A stretch of DNA of 64,000 nucleotides from Oceanirhabdus sp. W0125-5 (GTDB taxonomy: Bacteria > Bacillota > Clostridia > Clostridiales > Clostridiaceae): positions 2,576,001 through 2,640,000 of the forward strand of contig NZ_CP115913.1 in NCBI RefSeq assembly GCF_027938815.1, in the 5' to 3' direction. Below, one piece after another: positions 49,160 to 58,388 of this stretch. The stretch's first letter is position 1. Each line of letters opens with the position of its first letter. Made by a program: the position numbers and the translations under genes. The notes beneath the pieces were generated by a model, which did no database searches, was not told the origin of the DNA, and worked only from the letters and a program-made list of their open reading frames with translations.

Positions 49160-50683
49160 ATGGGGAAAATTATAATAGATGGTAAAAGTTTGACAATAGA
49201 AAAAGTTGTTAAAATAGCTCGATGTAATGAAGAGGTTGTTATCAGTGAAGAAGCATATGAGAGAGTAATAGAATCAAGAAAAATTGTTGACGACATTGTT
49301 GAGAATGATAGAGTGAAATATGGAATAACTACAGGATTCGGAAAATTCTCAGACGTTACTATAACACAAGAAGATTGCAAAACATTACAAAGAAATTTAA
49401 TAATATCACATGCTTGTGGGTTTGGTGAGCCGTTTTCAATTGATGAAACAAGAGGAATTATGCTTCTTAGAATAAATAATCTTGTTAAAGGTTATTCCGG
49501 TATTAGAGTAGAGACATTAAATACCCTTCTAGAAATGTTGAATAAAGGAGTAACACCTATAATACCACAAAAAGGATCTTTGGGAGCTTCAGGAGATTTA
49601 GCACCATTAGCTCACATGGTATTGCCTATGATAGGTGAAGGTGAAGCTATATTCAATGGAGAAAGAATGACTGGACAGAAAGCTATGGAGTTAGCAGGGA
49701 TAAGTACAATTGAGTTAACCGCTAAAGAAGGATTAGCATTGATAAATGGAACACAAGTTATGACATCAGTTGGCGTACTTGCGTTATATGATTCAAAAAT
49801 ATTATTAGAGACTGCTGATATAACATCAGCATTGACATTAGAAGCTTTAAGAGGAATAAGAGATGCCTTTAACCCAGCAATACATGAAATAAGACCTCAT
49901 CAGGGACAAATAAATACTGCAGAGAATATTCTAAAGCTTGTAGAGGGAAGTACTTTAATAACTTCACAGGGAGAGCTGAGAGTTCAGGATGCATATACTC
50001 TAAGATGTATACCGCAAGTACATGGAGCATCAAAAGATGCCTATAGATATGTTAGAGAAAAAGTTGAAATTGAGATTAATTCTGTTACTGATAATCCAAT
50101 AATAACTAGAGATGGAGAGGTATATTCTGGTGGTAACTTCCATGGGCAACCAATGGCAATAATATTTGATTTTCTTGGAATAGCTATGTCTGAGATTGGT
50201 AATATTTCAGAAAGAAGATTAGAGAGATTAATAAACTATCAATTAAATGACCTGCCAGCATTCTTAGTTAAAAAGGGTGGTTTGAACTCAGGTTATATGA
50301 TTACTCAATATGCTGCAGCTGCATTAGTATCTGAGAATAAGGTGCTAGCTCATCCGGCTTCAGTTGACTCAATACCGTCTTCTGCTAATCAAGAAGACCA
50401 TGTAAGTATGGGAACAATTGCTGCGAGAAAAGCAAGAGACATAATAAATAATACATATAGAGTACTAGCAACAGAGATAATGGCGGCATGTCAAGCAATA
50501 GATTTTAGAGAAGGATTTAAACTTGGGAAAGCAACTCAAGCTGCTTACAATGAGGTTAGAAAAGAAGTTAAATTTATTGAAGAGGATATTGTAATGTACA
50601 AAGATCTTGACTTATGTACAGAGTTATTGAGAAGTGAAAAGATCAATAATGCTGTTAATGAAATAATTAAAATCAATATTTAG
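49160..50683 (+). CDS. hutH: Histidine ammonia-lyase
   Basis: Removes ammonia from L-histidine to give urocanate, first step of histidine breakdown. The 507-residue protein has YGITTGFGKF near residue 55 and the A143-S144-G145 triad in GSLGASGDLAPLAHM that cyclises to the methylidene-imidazolone cofactor. VTDNPII and GGNFHGQPMA follow near 315-330, and SSANQEDHVSMG lies near 410. Length equals the bacterial norm. The ATG follows AAAGGGGG. It is the first gene of the hut operon, with a CodY-like site and a promoter upstream. Confidence 0.96.
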   Translation: MGKIIIDGKSLTIEKVVKIARCNEEVVISEEAYERVIESRKIVDDIVENDRVKYGITTGFGKFSDVTITQEDCKTLQRNLIISHACGFGEPFSIDETRGIMLLRINNLVKGYSGIRVETLNTLLEMLNKGVTPIIPQKGSLGASGDLAPLAHMVLPMIGEGEAIFNGERMTGQKAMELAGISTIELTAKEGLALINGTQVMTSVGVLALYDSKILLETADITSALTLEALRGIRDAFNPAIHEIRPHQGQINTAENILKLVEGSTLITSQGELRVQDAYTLRCIPQVHGASKDAYRYVREKVEIEINSVTDNPIITRDGEVYSGGNFHGQPMAIIFDFLGIAMSEIGNISERRLERLINYQLNDLPAFLVKKGGLNSGYMITQYAAAALVSENKVLAHPASVDSIPSSANQEDHVSMGTIAARKARDIINNTYRVLATEIMAACQAIDFREGFKLGKATQAAYNEVRKEVKFIEEDIVMYKDLDLCTELLRSEKINNAVNEIIKINI

Positions 50684-50696
50684 GAGGAGAAGTATA

Positions 50697-51593
50697 ATGG
50701 CTAAGATTATGGAATGTATACCTAATTTCAGTGAAGGAAGAGACTTGGAAAAGGTTGAAAAAATAATGAACGTACTTAGAGGAAGAGAAGGGGTAAAACT
50801 TCTTGACTACTCATCAGACAGCGATCACAACAGAACAGTTGTTACAGTGATTGGAGAGCCAACAAAACTTGAGGAAGCTATAGTTGAATTTGCTGGTGCT
50901 GTTTATGAAAATATTGATATGACAAAGCATGAGGGTGGTCATCCAAGAATGGGAGCACTTGATGTTGTTCCATTTGTACCAATAAGTGATGTATCAATGG
51001 ATGAATGTAAAGAGATGGCTAATAGAGTTGGAGAAAAAATCGGAGAAATGTACAATGTACCTGTATATTTATATGAGGAGGCTGCAACAGCTGCTCATAG
51101 AAAAAATCTTGCAAAAGTAAGAAAAGGGCAATATGAAGGATTTTTTGAGAAAATTAAAGAAGAACAGTGGAAGCCTGACTTTGGTCCAATGGAAATGAAT
51201 GAAAAGTCTGGATGTACAGCAATAAGTGCTAGAGTTCCACTTGTTGCATTCAATGTTAATCTAGGGACAGATAACCTTGAAGTTGCAACAAAAATTGGTA
51301 AGGTTGTTAGACATATTGGTGGTGGATTAAGATATGTTAAGGCAATGGGTGTTATGCTTGAGGAGAGAAATATAGCTCAAGTATCAATGAATCTTGTTAA
51401 TTATGAGAAAACAGCAGTATATAGAGCTTTTGAAATGATTAAAATGGAAGCAAAGAGATATGGAGTGCCAGTTGTAGGTAGTGAGGTTATAGGGTTGGTT
51501 CCAATGGCTGCGTTAATTGGTTGCGCTGAATACTATCTTCAAATTGAGAACTTCTCAATGGATCAAATTCTTGAAAAGAGAATTATGGAATAA
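50697..51593 (+). CDS. ftcD: Glutamate formimidoyltransferase (FtcD)
   Basis: Transfers the formimino group from formiminoglutamate to tetrahydrofolate. The 298-residue protein corresponds to the transferase half of the mammalian bifunctional enzyme, with MECIPNFSEGRD at the start and GGHPRMGALDVVPFVP containing His82, the catalytic position of the porcine enzyme. FNVNLGTDNLEVA and VGSEVIGLVPMAALIG follow. The cyclodeaminase partner is the separate, damaged gene at 52976. Thirteen bases after hutH, with TAGGAGGAG before the ATG. Confidence 0.94.
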   Translation: MAKIMECIPNFSEGRDLEKVEKIMNVLRGREGVKLLDYSSDSDHNRTVVTVIGEPTKLEEAIVEFAGAVYENIDMTKHEGGHPRMGALDVVPFVPISDVSMDECKEMANRVGEKIGEMYNVPVYLYEEAATAAHRKNLAKVRKGQYEGFFEKIKEEQWKPDFGPMEMNEKSGCTAISARVPLVAFNVNLGTDNLEVATKIGKVVRHIGGGLRYVKAMGVMLEERNIAQVSMNLVNYEKTAVYRAFEMIKMEAKRYGVPVVGSEVIGLVPMAALIGCAEYYLQIENFSMDQILEKRIME

Positions 51594-51621
51594 GAAATAT
51601 GCCTATTAAGGAGGATGTTAA

Positions 51622-52860
51622 ATGTCTATTATTATTAAAAATATAGATTGCCTTGTGACTTGTAAAGGTGAAAGACCTAAAAAAGGCATAGATATGATGG
51701 ATGCAGGAATAATTGAAAATGGATTTATTGTAATTGAAGATGATAAAATATTAAAAATTGGTAGTGGTGATGGGTATAAGGAATATATTAATAATCACAC
51801 TGAGATTATAGATGGAAGAGGCAAAACGGTTACCCCTGGATTGATAGACTGTCATACTCATGTAGTTTATGGTGGCTCAAGAGAAAGAGAACTACCATTG
51901 AAACTAAAAAAAGTTGGGTATATTGAGATATTAAAAAGCGGTGGTGGTATATTAAGTTCTGTTAGACAGACAAGAGAAGCTACAACAGCTGAACTAGTAG
52001 AGCAAGCAGGGAAGAGACTAGACACCATGTTAGCTCATGGAACAACTACAATAGAAAGTAAATCTGGGTATGGATTAGACTTTGAAAGTGAGATGAAATG
52101 CTTAGAGGTCAATAAGATATTAAATGAGAAACATCATATTGATATTGTTTCTACATTCCTGGGAGCACATGCAATACCTATGGAGTATAAAGAGGACAGG
52201 GAAAAGTATATAGATATTGTTTTGAATGATATGTTACCTCATGTTGTAGAGAATAATCTTGCAGAGTATATAGATGTATTCTGTGAAAAAGGTGTTTATA
52301 CAGTTGAAGAATCCAGAAGAATCTTAAAAGCTGGTCAGGAAAAGGGATTAAAGGCTAAGATTCATGCAGATGAAGTTGTATCAATAGGAGGTGCAGAACT
52401 TGCTGGGGAAGTTAAAGCAGTATCTGCTGAACACCTTGTAGCAGTTTCAGATGAAGGTATTAAATCAATGAGTGAAAATGATGTAATTGCAGTATTATTA
52501 CCTTCAACATCTTTTTATCTAATGTTAGATCACTTTGCAAATGCTAGAAAGATTATTGAGGGAAATGTTCCCGTAGCGTTATCAACAGATTGTAATCCAG
52601 GGACATCACCTACTGAGTCATTACAAACAGTTATGACATTTGCATGTTTTGGAATGGGAATGTTCCCAGAAGAAATAATAAATGCTATGACATACAATGC
52701 TGCTTGTGCTATTAACAGACAAGATGAGATAGGTAGTATTGAAATTGGTAAAAAGGCAGATATTGCTATTTTTGATAGTAAAAATTTAAATTATTTAATG
52801 TATCATTTTGGAATTAATCAAATACACAAAGTTATAAAAAATGGAAAAATTGTAATATAG
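51622..52860 (+). CDS. hutI: Imidazolonepropionase
   Basis: Hydrolyses imidazolone-5-propionate to N-formimino-L-glutamate. The 412-residue amidohydrolase has metal ligands in DCHTHVVYGGSRERE near residue 75, the block TTIESKSGYGLD near 145, KIHADEVVSIGGAELA near 250 with EHLVAVSDEG, and ALSTDCNPGTSPTESLQ near 325. The C-terminal KKADIAIFD is typical of amidohydrolases. AAGGAGG precedes the ATG. Its substrate comes from urocanase, whose gene is not in the window. Confidence 0.95.
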   Translation: MSIIIKNIDCLVTCKGERPKKGIDMMDAGIIENGFIVIEDDKILKIGSGDGYKEYINNHTEIIDGRGKTVTPGLIDCHTHVVYGGSRERELPLKLKKVGYIEILKSGGGILSSVRQTREATTAELVEQAGKRLDTMLAHGTTTIESKSGYGLDFESEMKCLEVNKILNEKHHIDIVSTFLGAHAIPMEYKEDREKYIDIVLNDMLPHVVENNLAEYIDVFCEKGVYTVEESRRILKAGQEKGLKAKIHADEVVSIGGAELAGEVKAVSAEHLVAVSDEGIKSMSENDVIAVLLPSTSFYLMLDHFANARKIIEGNVPVALSTDCNPGTSPTESLQTVMTFACFGMGMFPEEIINAMTYNAACAINRQDEIGSIEIGKKADIAIFDSKNLNYLMYHFGINQIHKVIKNGKIVI

Positions 52861-52975
52861 ATTTTAATCAAAAAAATCTTATAATTTATTATTGACAGAT
52901 ATACCTGTATCCCCCATAATGAAATCGTTAAGAGAAATTTCTGAGTATTTCCGTGAAAATTAAGGAGGAATAGCC

Positions 52976-53621
52976 ATGCTAGATAGCAAAAAAGTCAATG
53001 AGTTTATTGATGAGTTGGCATCGAATTCACCTGCGCCAGGTGGGGGGAAGTGTAGCGGCGCTTAGTGCAAGTATTGGAGCTGCTTTAACATCAATGGTTT
53101 TTAGTTTAACGGTAGGGAAGAAAGCTTATAGAAATATGAGTGAAGAGGATCAGAAGAGAGTAGACAATACTCTTGAAGAGGCTCAAGCACTTAAGGATGA
53201 ATTTTTAAACCTTATGAATAAGGATACTGAGGAATTCATGGAAGTAATGAAGGCTTACAAGCTACCTAAAGAAAGTGATGAGGAGAAGGCTTTAAGAAAA
53301 GAAAAGATTGAGGAAGCATATAAGAGAGCTATGCGTATTCCGATGATTGTTGGAGAAAAATCATTTGAAATGTATAATCTTATTGAGACAGCTTGTGAGC
53401 TTGGAAATAAGAATGCTATTTCAGACGCAGGCGTTGCTGCATTAATGATTCAGAGTGCAATCGAAGGTGCTGTATTGAATGTAAAAATTAATCTTACTGC
53501 TATTAATGATGAGCAGTTTAAGAATGAGAATATAGAAAAATGTAATCACATAGTAAACCAGGGCAAGTTGAAATGTGAAAAAATTCAATCAATAGTAAAT
53601 GAAAAAATCGGAATAAATTAA
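52976..53621 (+). pseudogene. fchA: Formiminotetrahydrofolate cyclodeaminase gene with a one-base frameshift
   Basis: The enzyme converts 5-formimino-THF to methenyl-THF and ammonia. A strong AAGGAGG precedes the ATG at 52976, which opens MLDSKKVNEFIDELASNSPAPGGG and then hits a stop at 53063-53065. The rest of the protein (SVAALSASIGAAL... to 53621) continues in the +1 frame. The switch is at a run of six G at 53042-53047, where five would restore an uninterrupted protein of about 214 residues with the family PAPGGGSVAAL motif. The body downstream is intact, so the change is recent or a sequencing error in a homopolymer. A frame starting at 52998 lacks a ribosome binding site and would miss the true N-terminus. 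Confidence 0.85.
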
Positions 53622-53638
53622 TACTCGGGGGAACAGGT

Positions 53639-54850
53639 ATGAACAATGAAGTGTTAAATATGAATCCGGAAGTTATTGAGCCGGTAGTAAACAATAAGAG
53701 GGTTAAAAAAGCAATTGGTTTAGAAGGGTTAGTAGCATTTGTATTATTTGTAGGATTTTTTTGGTATTTAGGTTCTATCATGGAATTACCCAATATGCTG
53801 CAGACAATGATGAATACAGCATTCGATTTATTGCTAAACACCGTTTTTTATATAATGGCTATATCGGTTTTAGCTGGAGCAGTAGCAGCAATATTAACTG
53901 AGTTTGGTATCGTAGCATTAATCAATAAAATATTAGCAATTTTAATGAAGCCGTTATATAATCTTCCTGGCGCTGCAGCATTAGGAATGGTAACGACTTA
54001 TCTTTCAGATAATCCAGCAATATTAACATTAGCAAGTGATAAAGGATTTAAGAAATATTTTAAAAAGTTTCAGCTGCCTGCATTGACAAATATGGGAACA
54101 GCTTTTGGAATGGGTCTTATTGTAACAGTGACAATGAGCCTAAAAGTATCACCAAGTGGAGAAAGTATGGCAACAGCTGCTCTTATTGGTAATATTGGAG
54201 CTGTTATTGGTAGTATTGTATCAGTTAGAATAATGATGATATTCACAAAAAAATTATTTGGAACTGAAGAAATGGCAGTGGAAAGTGATGAAAATGATTT
54301 AGATGTAATGAAGTATAGAGAAGTAAGAGAAGGAAGTGTTTCAAGTAGATTACTTGAAGCTATGCTTGATGGTGGAAAATCTGGTGTTGAACTTGGAATG
54401 GGAATAATTCCAGGAGTGCTTATTATTTGTACATTAGTTATGATGTTAACAAATGGAGCACCTGCTGGAGGATATACTGGAGCTGCTTACGAAGGAGTAG
54501 GACTACTTCCTGCTATAGGCGGCAAACTTAATTTTATATTTGAGCCTTTGTTTGGTTTTACAAGTGGTGAGGCTTTGGCATTCCCAATTACAGCACTTGG
54601 TGCAGTTGGTGCTGCTTTAGGTCTAGTTGATCCTTTACTACAAAGTGGAGCAATAACAGGTAATGAGATTGCTGTATTTACATCAATGGGAATGTGTTGG
54701 AGTGGATACTTAAGTACACATGTAGCAATGATGGACGGGCTTGGATGTAGAGAACTTACTGGTAAGGCTATATTAAGTCATACCATAGGAGGACTTTGTG
54801 CAGGGATTTCTGCCCACTGGATTTATGTATTATTTACATCAGTACTTTAA
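53639..54850 (+). CDS. Gate-domain membrane transporter of the hut operon (probable histidine or related uptake)
   Basis: A 403-residue polytopic protein with about nine membrane helices. It has the layout of nucleoside-recognition (Gate) domain proteins, with two glycine-rich repeats (YNLPGAAALGMVTTYLSDNPAIL and GKLNFIFEPLFGFTSGEALAFPITALGA). A hydrophilic loop near residues 210-250 separates the halves. Proteins of this family are found in clostridial hut and amino acid operons and are often annotated only as membrane proteins. Its position as last gene of the operon argues for uptake of histidine or export of a product. Substrate not proven. GGGGGAA precedes the ATG. Confidence 0.75.
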   Translation: MNNEVLNMNPEVIEPVVNNKRVKKAIGLEGLVAFVLFVGFFWYLGSIMELPNMLQTMMNTAFDLLLNTVFYIMAISVLAGAVAAILTEFGIVALINKILAILMKPLYNLPGAAALGMVTTYLSDNPAILTLASDKGFKKYFKKFQLPALTNMGTAFGMGLIVTVTMSLKVSPSGESMATAALIGNIGAVIGSIVSVRIMMIFTKKLFGTEEMAVESDENDLDVMKYREVREGSVSSRLLEAMLDGGKSGVELGMGIIPGVLIICTLVMMLTNGAPAGGYTGAAYEGVGLLPAIGGKLNFIFEPLFGFTSGEALAFPITALGAVGAALGLVDPLLQSGAITGNEIAVFTSMGMCWSGYLSTHVAMMDGLGCRELTGKAILSHTIGGLCAGISAHWIYVLFTSVL

Positions 54851-54861
54851 TAATTGAGAAC

Positions 54862-54900
54862 AAAGCACCTAAAAAGAAATTTACTTTTTAGGTGCTTTTT
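54862..54900 (+). terminator. Rho-independent terminator of the hut operon
   Basis: AAAGCACCTAAAAAG and CTTTTTAGGTGCTTT form a 15-base-pair stem around AAATTTA, followed by T residues, 12 bases after the transporter stop. Confidence 0.9.
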
Positions 54901-55009
54901 AATCGTATGTTCTAGAGCCCTTATTTTTTAGGATAAAAAAATAAAGGGGATAAGTAGTTTTTATAGAATATAGGAAGGGGGGATATAATTTAGTTGGGGT
55001 GAAGAATTT

Positions 55010-56737
55010 ATGGGGTTCAATGAAAGTGTTATAGACTTGTATAATACTATACAAGAAGAATATACAGAAAATTTGGAAAAAAACAAGCTTATAAAAGATT
55101 TTAAATGTAAGTATAGCATAGAAGATAGAATTGGGGAGTTCTATTTAAAAAAAAGTGATCAAGGAAAAAAAGAAAGAGGAAGAGTGTATACCCCTCAATA
55201 TATTGCATCATATATAGTTAAAAAATATTTAAATAACTTATGTTTTAGTGAGAATAGGAATATAAAAATATGTGATCCATCATGTGGGACAGGAAATTTT
55301 ATATTTGAGGTTATAGAACAATTGATTAATTTGTTTTTAACTGATGAATCAACAGAAAGTAACTGTAGAAAAGATATAATAAAATATATACTGGAAAATA
55401 ATATTGTAGGATATGATATTGATGCAGTTGCGTTAGCAATTTTACAGATTGATGTTTATGAAAAGTATGGATACTTTATAACTAAGATATATAATAAAGA
55501 CTATCTTCTTAATGATAAAGAAAAATATGATATTTTGATTGGAAATCCACCATATATAGGTCATAAGAGCATTTCGAAAGAATATAGGAAGCTACTTAAG
55601 GAAAAATATGAAAATCTTTTAATTGATAAGGGAGATATCTCATATTGTTTTTTATATGAGGCTATACAAAATACACATGAAAAAGGAAAAATAATATTTA
55701 TTACATCACGGTATTTTATGGAGTCATTAAGTGGAGAAAAACTGAGAGATGAACTTCTAAAAGTTGATGGACATGTTCAAATAATTGATTTTTACGGGTT
55801 AAGGCCATTTAAAGGAGTGGGGATAGATCCTGTTATAATAAGTATAGATAAGGAAGCAAGTGAGGGATCTCATATTTCAGTGATAAAGCCTAAAATTATT
55901 GATGGTGAAGTTGATAAAGATTTTATAAAAAAACTCATAATTAGAAATGAAATTTACAGAGAGTTTACTGTTGATAAGGAAAGACTAAGGAAAAGTAAAT
56001 GGATGCTTATAAATGAAAGTCAACAAAAAATCATAGATAAAATAAATTTAAAGAGCACTAAATCGATTGAAGAAATTGCTGATTTTTATCAAGGTGTAAT
56101 TACAGGATGTGATAAAGCGTTTATAATACATAATGAGAATAAGCTTAAAATAGAAGAATACCTTTTGAGAAGATGGATAAAAAATAGCCATATACAAAAA
56201 GGAAGAATATTTAATAGTGACAAGGCTTTAATATATTCAAACATAATAAATAATGAGGATATAATTGAAAGTAATGTTATAAAACATTTAAGACAATTTG
56301 AAGACAAACTAAGAAAAAGAAGAGAGTGCATTAATGGTGTTAGAAAATGGTATGAACTGCAATGGGGAAGAAAAAGAGAGATTTTTGAAGGAGAAAAAAT
56401 TATATTTCCTTATAAAAGTGGAAGCAATAGATTTGCAGTAGATCATGGAAGTTTTTTCAGTGCGGATATTTACTGCATAAAATTCAAGTGCAAAGAATTG
56501 AATTATGAAAGATTATGCAACCTCTTCAATTCGAAATTATATGAGTTTTATATGAAGTGTATGTGTAAAAAATTAGGAAGAGATCTGTACGAGTATTATC
56601 CAAACTCTTTAAAAAAAATTAGAGTATTGAATATTTTTTTTGAAAATGAAAATATTTCTGACCAAAAATTATATGATTATTTATCATTAAACAAAGAAGA
56701 AATAAAAATAATAGAAAATTCATGTAAAATACATTAA
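55010..56737 (+). CDS. Orphan adenine-N6 DNA methyltransferase, CamA-like
   Basis: The 575-residue protein is a type II gamma-class methyltransferase. Motif I is DPSCGTGNF (near residue 90), the YTPQYIASYIVKKYL block precedes it, and the catalytic NPPYIGHK motif IV lies near residue 183. A C-terminal target-recognition domain carries YQGVITGCDKAFII, RRECINGVRKWYELQWGR and FPYKSGSNRFAVD. These blocks, their order and the total length agree with what I remember of CamA, the C. difficile enzyme that methylates CAAAAA and affects sporulation. No restriction endonuclease gene is adjacent, so it is probably an orphan regulator. It lies 127 bases before spoIIAA. Start: ATG in TTTATGGGG, with a weak upstream site. 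Confidence 0.85.
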   Translation: MGFNESVIDLYNTIQEEYTENLEKNKLIKDFKCKYSIEDRIGEFYLKKSDQGKKERGRVYTPQYIASYIVKKYLNNLCFSENRNIKICDPSCGTGNFIFEVIEQLINLFLTDESTESNCRKDIIKYILENNIVGYDIDAVALAILQIDVYEKYGYFITKIYNKDYLLNDKEKYDILIGNPPYIGHKSISKEYRKLLKEKYENLLIDKGDISYCFLYEAIQNTHEKGKIIFITSRYFMESLSGEKLRDELLKVDGHVQIIDFYGLRPFKGVGIDPVIISIDKEASEGSHISVIKPKIIDGEVDKDFIKKLIIRNEIYREFTVDKERLRKSKWMLINESQQKIIDKINLKSTKSIEEIADFYQGVITGCDKAFIIHNENKLKIEEYLLRRWIKNSHIQKGRIFNSDKALIYSNIINNEDIIESNVIKHLRQFEDKLRKRRECINGVRKWYELQWGRKREIFEGEKIIFPYKSGSNRFAVDHGSFFSADIYCIKFKCKELNYERLCNLFNSKLYEFYMKCMCKKLGRDLYEYYPNSLKKIRVLNIFFENENISDQKLYDYLSLNKEEIKIIENSCKIH

Positions 56738-56791
56738 AATTGTATAATAAACAATAAAATGGATATAATTTAAAAATAATTATAAATAATT

Positions 56792-56818
56792 GAAGGATTT
56801 TTGAGTTTTATAAAGAAT
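56792..56818 (+). promoter_or_regulatory. Sigma-H promoter of the spoIIA operon
   Basis: GAAGGATTT at 56792-56800 matches RnAGGAwWW. AAAGAAT at 56812-56818 matches RnnGAAT, with 11 bases between, all within the Bacillus sigma-H consensus. It lies 46 bases before the spoIIAA start. No clear Spo0A box (TGTCGAA) was found nearby. Confidence 0.75.
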
Positions 56819-56864
56819 ATTATAAAAGGAAATAAATGTAAATTAACCGATAGGGGGAGTGGAA

Positions 56865-57213: not shown

Positions 57214-57633
57214 ATGCAAAAGAATAGTATGAGACTAGAATTTTCAAGCAAATCAATTAATGAGGGGTTCGCACGTGTAGCTGTGGCGAGTTTTATATCA
57301 ATTTTGGATCCTACAATTGATACCCTTGCTGACATTAAAACAGCAGTTTCTGAAGCTGTAACAAATAGTATTATTCATGGATATGGGAATGAAGATGGGA
57401 AAGTAATTATCGAATGTACCATTGAAAATAATGATATTGAAATTAAAGTTATGGATGAGGGAAATGGTATCAAAAACATTGAATTAGCTATGCAGCCATT
57501 ATATACTTCAAGGCCTGATTTAGAACGATCAGGAATGGGCTTTACAGTTATGGAAACATTTATGGATGAGCTAAAAGTTGAATCAGAATATGAAAAGGGA
57601 ACATGCGTTGTAATGAGAAAACATATCAATTAG
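57214..57633 (+). CDS. spoIIAB: Anti-sigma-F factor and serine kinase SpoIIAB
   Basis: A 139-residue GHKL-fold kinase that holds sigma-F inactive and phosphorylates SpoIIAA. The N box [13 protein letters not shown] (Glu47, Asn51), the DEGNGI box near residue 82 and the [14 protein letters not shown] loop near residue 106 are intact. The ATG at 57214 follows TGGGGGG. The frame extends upstream to 57133 without a suitable start. Spacing to spoIIAA is 13 bases. Confidence 0.95.
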
Positions 57634-57656: not shown

Positions 57657-58388
57657 ATGGACAAAAACTATGGAAATAATCTAGAACTTATTAAAGAAGC
57701 AAGAAAAGGGAATAAAGAAGCCCTCGATAATATTGTTCAGAATAATCTACCGCTTGTAACTTCTATTTGTAAGAAATTTATAAATAGAGGTTATGAGTAC
57801 GATGATTTATTTCAGATAGGTTGTATTGGGTTAGTTAAGGCAGTATCAAATTTTGATGATAGTTATGGCGTTAAATTTTCAACATATGCTGTTCCAATGA
57901 TTATGGGAGAGATTAAGAGATTCTTTCGTGATGATGGAATAATAAAGGTAAGTAGAAGTGTTAAAAAGCAAGCAAGGCAGCTCCATTATGATAGAGAAGC
58001 TTTAACTAATGAACTGCAACGAGACCCAACAGTGGAGGAATTATCCGAATATTCTGGAATTTCAAAAGAAGAAGTAGTATTTGCACTTGAATCAAGTGCT
58101 GGAATGAATTATTTATATGATACTATACATCAAGATGATGGTTCTCCAGTGCTTCTAATTGATAAAATAACATGTAAGAAAGAGAATAGTGTAAAATTGA
58201 TAGACAAAATTGCTTTAAAAGAAGCAATAAGACAATTAGATTCAAGAGGAAGACAGGTAATTATATTAAGATACTTTAAAGATAAAACACAGGTACAAGT
58301 GGCAAAAATGCTTGGTATAAGTCAAGTTCAGGTATCAAGAATTGAAAAGAAAGTTTTAGGTCAAATAAAGGAAAAGATAAGTGGATAA
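57657..58388 (+). CDS. sigF: RNA polymerase sporulation sigma factor sigma-F
   Basis: The 243-residue forespore-specific sigma factor. Region 2 includes YDDLFQIGCIGLVKAV and FDDSYGVKFSTYAVPMIMGE followed by IKRFFRDDG. Region 3 has KQARQLHYDREAL. Region 4, with the -35 recognition helix, is VIILRYFKDKTQVQVAKMLG followed by SQVQVSRIEKKVL. It is the last gene of spoIIA and would direct transcription of early forespore genes. Confidence 0.96.
   Translation: MDKNYGNNLELIKEARKGNKEALDNIVQNNLPLVTSICKKFINRGYEYDDLFQIGCIGLVKAVSNFDDSYGVKFSTYAVPMIMGEIKRFFRDDGIIKVSRSVKKQARQLHYDREALTNELQRDPTVEELSEYSGISKEEVVFALESSAGMNYLYDTIHQDDGSPVLLIDKITCKKENSVKLIDKIALKEAIRQLDSRGRQVIILRYFKDKTQVQVAKMLGISQVQVSRIEKKVLGQIKEKISG

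Follow-up and report, generated by a model that had tools for sequence, protein, structure and literature searches.

Among the closest known relatives of the gene reported here is that of the CamA methyltransferase of Clostridioides difficile (CD2758; PDB 7LNI, 7LNJ and 7LT5), an orphan enzyme with CAAAAA specificity in which 15 residues touch bases or wedge between them (PMC8187626). In C. difficile, CamA acts through one promoter site to give higher spoIIE expression and sigma-F activation (PMC13395437). The enzyme has been called specific to C. difficile (PMC13395437) and rare in other bacteria (PMC8187626), and has been proposed as a selective drug target.

A closely similar mark has been described in other clostridia. 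CAAAAAR was found methylated at 97.1% of sites in the methylome of Clostridium pasteurianum (PMC4690370) and was assigned to the lone methyltransferase CP6013_1459 of this species in a study of lower coverage, where 24% of the sites were modified (PMC5027557). Cloning and expression of Awo_c14460 of Acetobacterium woodii, on its own, resulted in CAAAAAR methylation (PMC6700114), and CAAAAAR or CRAAAAR methylation has been reported for many other clostridia. The more distant M.BseCI and M.TaqI share the gamma-class architecture of the enzyme reported here, including a recognition domain at the C terminus, but are parts of restriction-modification systems, recognise other motifs and show far lower similarity to it.

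In this paper, we report the analysis of a CamA-like gene located in a stretch of 64,000 nucleotides from Oceanirhabdus sp. W0125-5, hereafter the window. A previous reading of the window, made from the letters alone (the sequence-only reading), had described the gene as a CamA-like orphan directly upstream of the spoIIA operon and had implied that such enzymes are rare outside C. difficile; the latter view is wrong, as many species of Clostridium have a known CAAAAAR methylome.

The methyltransferase gene and its predicted target

The protein encoded by the open reading frame (Table 1) consists of 575 amino acids and carries the motifs quoted in the sequence-only reading, namely DPSCGTGNF (motif I, residues 89-97), NPPYIGHK (with the NPPY of motif IV at residues 179-182), YQGVITGCDKAFII and KWYELQWGR. 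The gap of 127 nt to spoIIAA (56738-56864) was likewise as claimed, taking the ATG as the spoIIAA start. The family is represented by a single gene in the 5.78-Mb single-contig genome, and the enzyme of the closest relative among the genomes compared, G192, most likely that of Oceanirhabdus seepicola, is 73% identical. The boundary between the catalytic and recognition domains is approximate and was set at CamA residue 320.

Table 1. Coordinates of the methyltransferase gene and of neighbouring features in the window
Feature	Position	Strand	Remarks
CD0519/CD1768-family membrane protein gene	53639..54850	+	upstream neighbour, after histidine-utilisation cluster
Probable terminator	54862..54898	+	15-bp hairpin then T run; -19.2 kcal/mol (folding)
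Candidate sigma-A-type methyltransferase promoter	54960..54989	+	TTTATA-18-TATAAT; consensus match only
CamA-family DNA adenine methyltransferase gene	55010..56737	+	predicted to methylate the last A of CAAAAA in CAAAAA(R)
N-terminal part with catalytic domain	55010..55999	+	33% identity to CamA-type protein
C-terminal target recognition domain	56000..56734	+	TaqI_C match; 41% identity to CamA-type protein
Sigma-H-type spoIIA promoter	56794..56818	+	AGGATTT...GAAT; layout as in most relatives
CAAAAA site	56798..56803	-	CAAAAAT context; overlaps spoIIA -35; not conserved, absent in sister species
spoIIAA	56865..57200	+	ATG 56865 after GGGGGAG; longer GTG form from 56859
spoIIAB	57214..57633	+	TIGR01925
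sigF (spoIIAC)	57657..58388	+	TIGR02885

Upstream of the gene lies a histidine-utilisation cluster of hutH, formiminotransferase, hutI and cyclodeaminase genes, together with the CD0519/CD1768-family membrane protein gene (49160-54850 in all), an arrangement that is partly conserved among relatives. The hairpin that follows, which was missing from the list given by the terminator consensus scan, probably separates the methyltransferase gene from the membrane protein gene, and the candidate promoter is of a sigma-A type whose consensus matches are no commoner here than in shuffled sequences. On the downstream side, spoIIAA, spoIIAB and sigF each scored above the NCBIfam equivalog cut-off and are followed by spoVAC-spoVAD-spoVAE.

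When the protein was compared to the PDB sequences using phmmer, CamA was the best match (6e-92, 312 bits, residues 52-559) and the next family was M.BseCI (6e-19), a result that would hardly be expected by chance. An AlphaFold2 model, for which the input was the window protein and 28 relatives, had a pLDDT of 86 and a pTM of 0.83; in a fold search of the PDB with this model the top 33 matches were all CamA chains (best E 7e-52, TM 0.72-0.75), followed by M.BseCI. The order of motif I, motif IV and a TaqI_C-like C-terminal recognition domain is that of the gamma class, and the enzyme resembles CamA in length, fold and motif order. Overall identity to C. difficile CamA is 37%, with 41% in the recognition domain versus 33% in the catalytic domain. 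This is the reverse of the usual pattern when targets diverge and thus argues for an unchanged target.

CamA residues were numbered via a Clostridioides CamA-type protein, all 577 residues of which could be aligned to the PDB chain with no gap. Of the 15 base-contacting or wedging residues, 13 are identical in the window enzyme: H171 and K172 (window H185 and K186), and, in the recognition domain, Q346, I349, R425, Q438, W439, R441, Y455, K456, S472, A473 and Y521 (window Q361, I364, R438, Q451, W452, R454, Y468, K469, S484, A485 and Y530). These contact the pairs C1:G1 to A4:T4 or wedge into the helix. Eight (K172, Q346, R425, W439, R441, S472, A473 and Y521) were invariant across all 138 aligned family proteins; position 171 varies within the family and is Q in C. 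pasteurianum, which indicates that the DNA contacts tolerate change. The description as a CamA-like orphan is thus borne out by fold, contact residues, conservation of the recognition domain, the single copy and the lack of a nuclease neighbour.

Among the DNA contacts, the differences from CamA are at S514 and I517, replaced in the window enzyme by G523 and L526, and at the phosphate-contacting K173, replaced by S187. S514 and I517 sit at the rearranged A5:T6 pair; their replacement could change what the enzyme requires at the 3' end of its motif, and, judged by these two residues, the window enzyme would not be a strict ortholog of C. difficile CamA with its CAAAAA specificity. In the alignment, G523 and L526 set it apart from the C. 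difficile enzyme and not from the wider family, as G at position 514 and L at position 517 are common to the window, C. pasteurianum and A. woodii enzymes. Their occurrence in both CAAAAAR enzymes suggests that they are candidate determinants of the seventh base.

In the family tree, the only family gene of C. pasteurianum (DSM 525, G148) falls inside the clade of the window gene, and the A. woodii enzyme falls with CamA in the sister clade; genome G294 was taken to be that of A. woodii on grounds that include the position of the gene. With C. pasteurianum in one clade and A. woodii in the other, the ancestral state is most simply taken to be CAAAAAR, and phylogenetic bracketing predicts CAAAAA(R) as the target of the window enzyme. 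CP6013_1459 and Awo_c14460, for which the motif is known from experiment, belong to the same family; the former gene likewise lies upstream of spoIIA, at about 1.4 kb, whereas the latter is not linked to spoIIA and comes from a species in which no spoIIE was found.

We therefore consider it highly likely that the window gene encodes an orphan, presumably active and probably constitutive gamma-class N6-adenine methyltransferase of the CamA family, modifying the last A of CAAAAA and most likely reading it as CAAAAAR. Such an enzyme would mark one strand only and would do so genome-wide, where 9,024 CAAAAA sites are present; by analogy with CamA, methylation at a few promoter sites could then tune gene expression.

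Distribution of the family and its linkage to spoIIA

Family matches at E <= 1e-40, which include a few fragments or more distant relatives, were obtained in 98 of the 207 Clostridiaceae genomes and 33 of the 46 genera, and a profile search of a class-wide Clostridia sample matched 50 of 391 genomes (E <= 1e-60). The spread among Clostridium relatives contradicts the published view of CamA as rare or specific to C. difficile. While this kind of enzyme is already known, the family is much broader than has been stated; and as it occurs in about half of the sampled Clostridiaceae genomes with key contacts invariant, the claims made for the selectivity and evolution of CamA need revision. A broken family gene, in two pieces with three stops, was seen at G098:C1:646384-648095, with intact copies in relatives.

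For the neighbourhood survey that the sequence-only reading had suggested, 81 loci (that of the window and 80 others) were compared, of which 76 were assessable and five lie on contigs that end too soon. In 66 of the 76, the methyltransferase gene precedes spoIIAA on the same strand, at a distance of 3 kb or less in 59, and the linkage spans 22 genera; its position directly upstream of spoIIA was hence correctly described and is conserved across many genera. The distance to spoIIAA is at most 500 bp in 33 loci (15 genera), 0.5-3 kb in 26 loci (12 genera) and 3-17 kb in seven. Ten loci, seven of them in one genus, were unlinked within the stretch examined. The Caloramator and Thermobrachium genes are 2-6.5 kb from spoIIA; outside these two genera and the Clostridiaceae, no linkage was found within about 9 kb, including in A. 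woodii and at the Clostridioides locus (L236), which differs in this respect from the window.

Recurrent neighbours of the gene are FTCD_C (53 genomes, 18 genera) and speE (29 genomes), and in 41 genomes of 16 genera, although not in the window, a divergent pdaA (TIGR02884, spore cortex) lies upstream of it. In Clostridium lineages that have no methyltransferase gene (L333-L342 and L345-L348), the place just upstream of spoIIAA is mostly taken by a Lon-related protein of about 770 residues, for which lon_rel was the best NCBIfam model with a score below the cut-off.

As a check on vertical inheritance, distances between the methyltransferases were compared with those of SpoIIAB and SigF; the correlation was significant overall (r 0.53) but weak between genera (0.21). 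A mobile origin was rejected, given that the relatives listed in plasmid and phage collections are all distant, with 21-27% identity. The gene is best explained as ancient in the chromosomes of Clostridiaceae and the sister group, where it was inherited largely in synteny with spoIIA.

Relation to sporulation and alternative explanations

The sequence-only reading had further proposed a local regulatory link to spoIIA and an extension of epigenetic control of sporulation beyond C. difficile. Of 66 loci, 39 had a sigma-H pattern ahead of spoIIAA, versus none of the 78 upstream regions of methyltransferase genes, indicating that the methyltransferase gene is not under the sporulation promoter of spoIIA; co-regulation of the two by sigma-H was accordingly rejected. 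The spoIIA promoter as a conserved target of methylation was also discarded, as the CAAAAA at its -35 is missing from the sister species and from nearly all relatives, nor are CAAAAA sites enriched at this promoter; neither result supports the proposed local link.

The promoter site through which CamA acts in C. difficile has no counterpart in the window genome, where the 300 bp preceding spoIIE contain no CAAAAA. Over the last 160 bp before spoIIE, genomes bearing the methyltransferase had 15 CAAAAA versus 20 occurrences of the reversed control motif, and genomes devoid of it had 6 versus 13, so that the bearers show no excess over either the control or the other genomes. The C. difficile mechanism is thus not transferable as such. 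Across the class, no association between the methyltransferase and spoIIE was detected (35/50 versus 277/391, Fisher p 0.87, phylogeny ignored), which led us to reject a restriction of the family to spore-formers. Several genomes without a spoIIE match keep a CAAAAAR methyltransferase, among them G294 (A. woodii) and G574, which suggests that the mark is probably of some use to the cell apart from sporulation. In C. pasteurianum M150B, CAAAAAR methylation persists despite deletion of spo0A (PMC4690370), consistent with expression of the methyltransferase independently of sporulation. Control of sporulation by the window enzyme, as suggested by its position and by analogy with C. difficile, therefore found no support in the promoter motifs, the association with spoIIE or the spo0A-deleted strain.

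Two readings of the place beside spoIIA can be set against these results. If the enzyme regulated sporulation in the manner of C. difficile CamA, sigma-F activity would be raised by methylation at sites near spoIIE or spoIIA, and the position would reflect this role; the precedent of CamA at spoIIE (PMC13395437), the linkage in 22 genera, often with the divergent pdaA on the other side, the CAAAAA site over the spoIIA -35 of the window and the lack of a detectable terminator between the methyltransferase gene and spoIIAA point in this direction. We nevertheless regard this reading as unlikely in view of the spoIIE upstream regions and the class-level comparison, and because the -35 site, besides its absence in the sister species, reads CAAAAAT and not CAAAAAR. 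More doubtful still is the wider proposal that a lineage-wide, strand-asymmetric mark from a spoIIA-linked gene feeds sigma-F activation via species-specific sites throughout the Clostridiaceae and the sister group; if true, CamA in C. difficile would be one case of a general and older epigenetic input into sporulation. It is rather probable, instead, that the position is a neutral ancestral gene order and that the enzyme would serve some general function not concerned with spores, be it in replication, repair, global expression or self-marking. The conserved block also contains the non-sporulation genes FTCD_C and speE, the methyltransferase has been lost in place in some species (G133 retains a remnant just upstream of spoIIAA, and in G154 hut/FTCD_C genes adjoin spoIIAA), and both the genomes lacking spoIIE and the spo0A-deleted C. 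pasteurianum fit this reading. Against a neutral order, the methyltransferase and spoIIA form the most widespread neighbour pair of the block, reaching the sister group. C. pasteurianum and other genetically tractable non-pathogens that carry the spoIIA-linked gene, and whose CAAAAAR methylomes are known, allow a role in sporulation to be tested directly outside C. difficile.

That the enzyme could instead supply the modification in a system of restriction-modification or of phage exclusion is suggested by PADLOC, which scored it as a type II methyltransferase, by weaker matches, BREX PglX and type IIG enzymes among them, and by C. carboxidivorans, where the related motif CRAAAAR was assigned to a fused type II restriction-modification protein (PMC10745947). 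We consider this highly improbable. As the sequence-only reading had noted, no endonuclease gene adjoins the methyltransferase gene, with none among those that could be identified between 49 and 63 kb, nor was a BREX gene set found in the neighbourhood or a recurrent nuclease neighbour across the 81 loci; the BREX NCBIfam score was 80 of 500, far below the cut-off, and the gene is widespread, single-copy and chromosomal in position. A restriction enzyme recognising CAAAAA(R) may still be encoded elsewhere in the genome. Locus L343 (G094), possibly from C. carboxidivorans, has no spoIIA-linked methyltransferase; if it is indeed from this species, CRAAAAR methylation there would come from a different gene, that of the fused protein.
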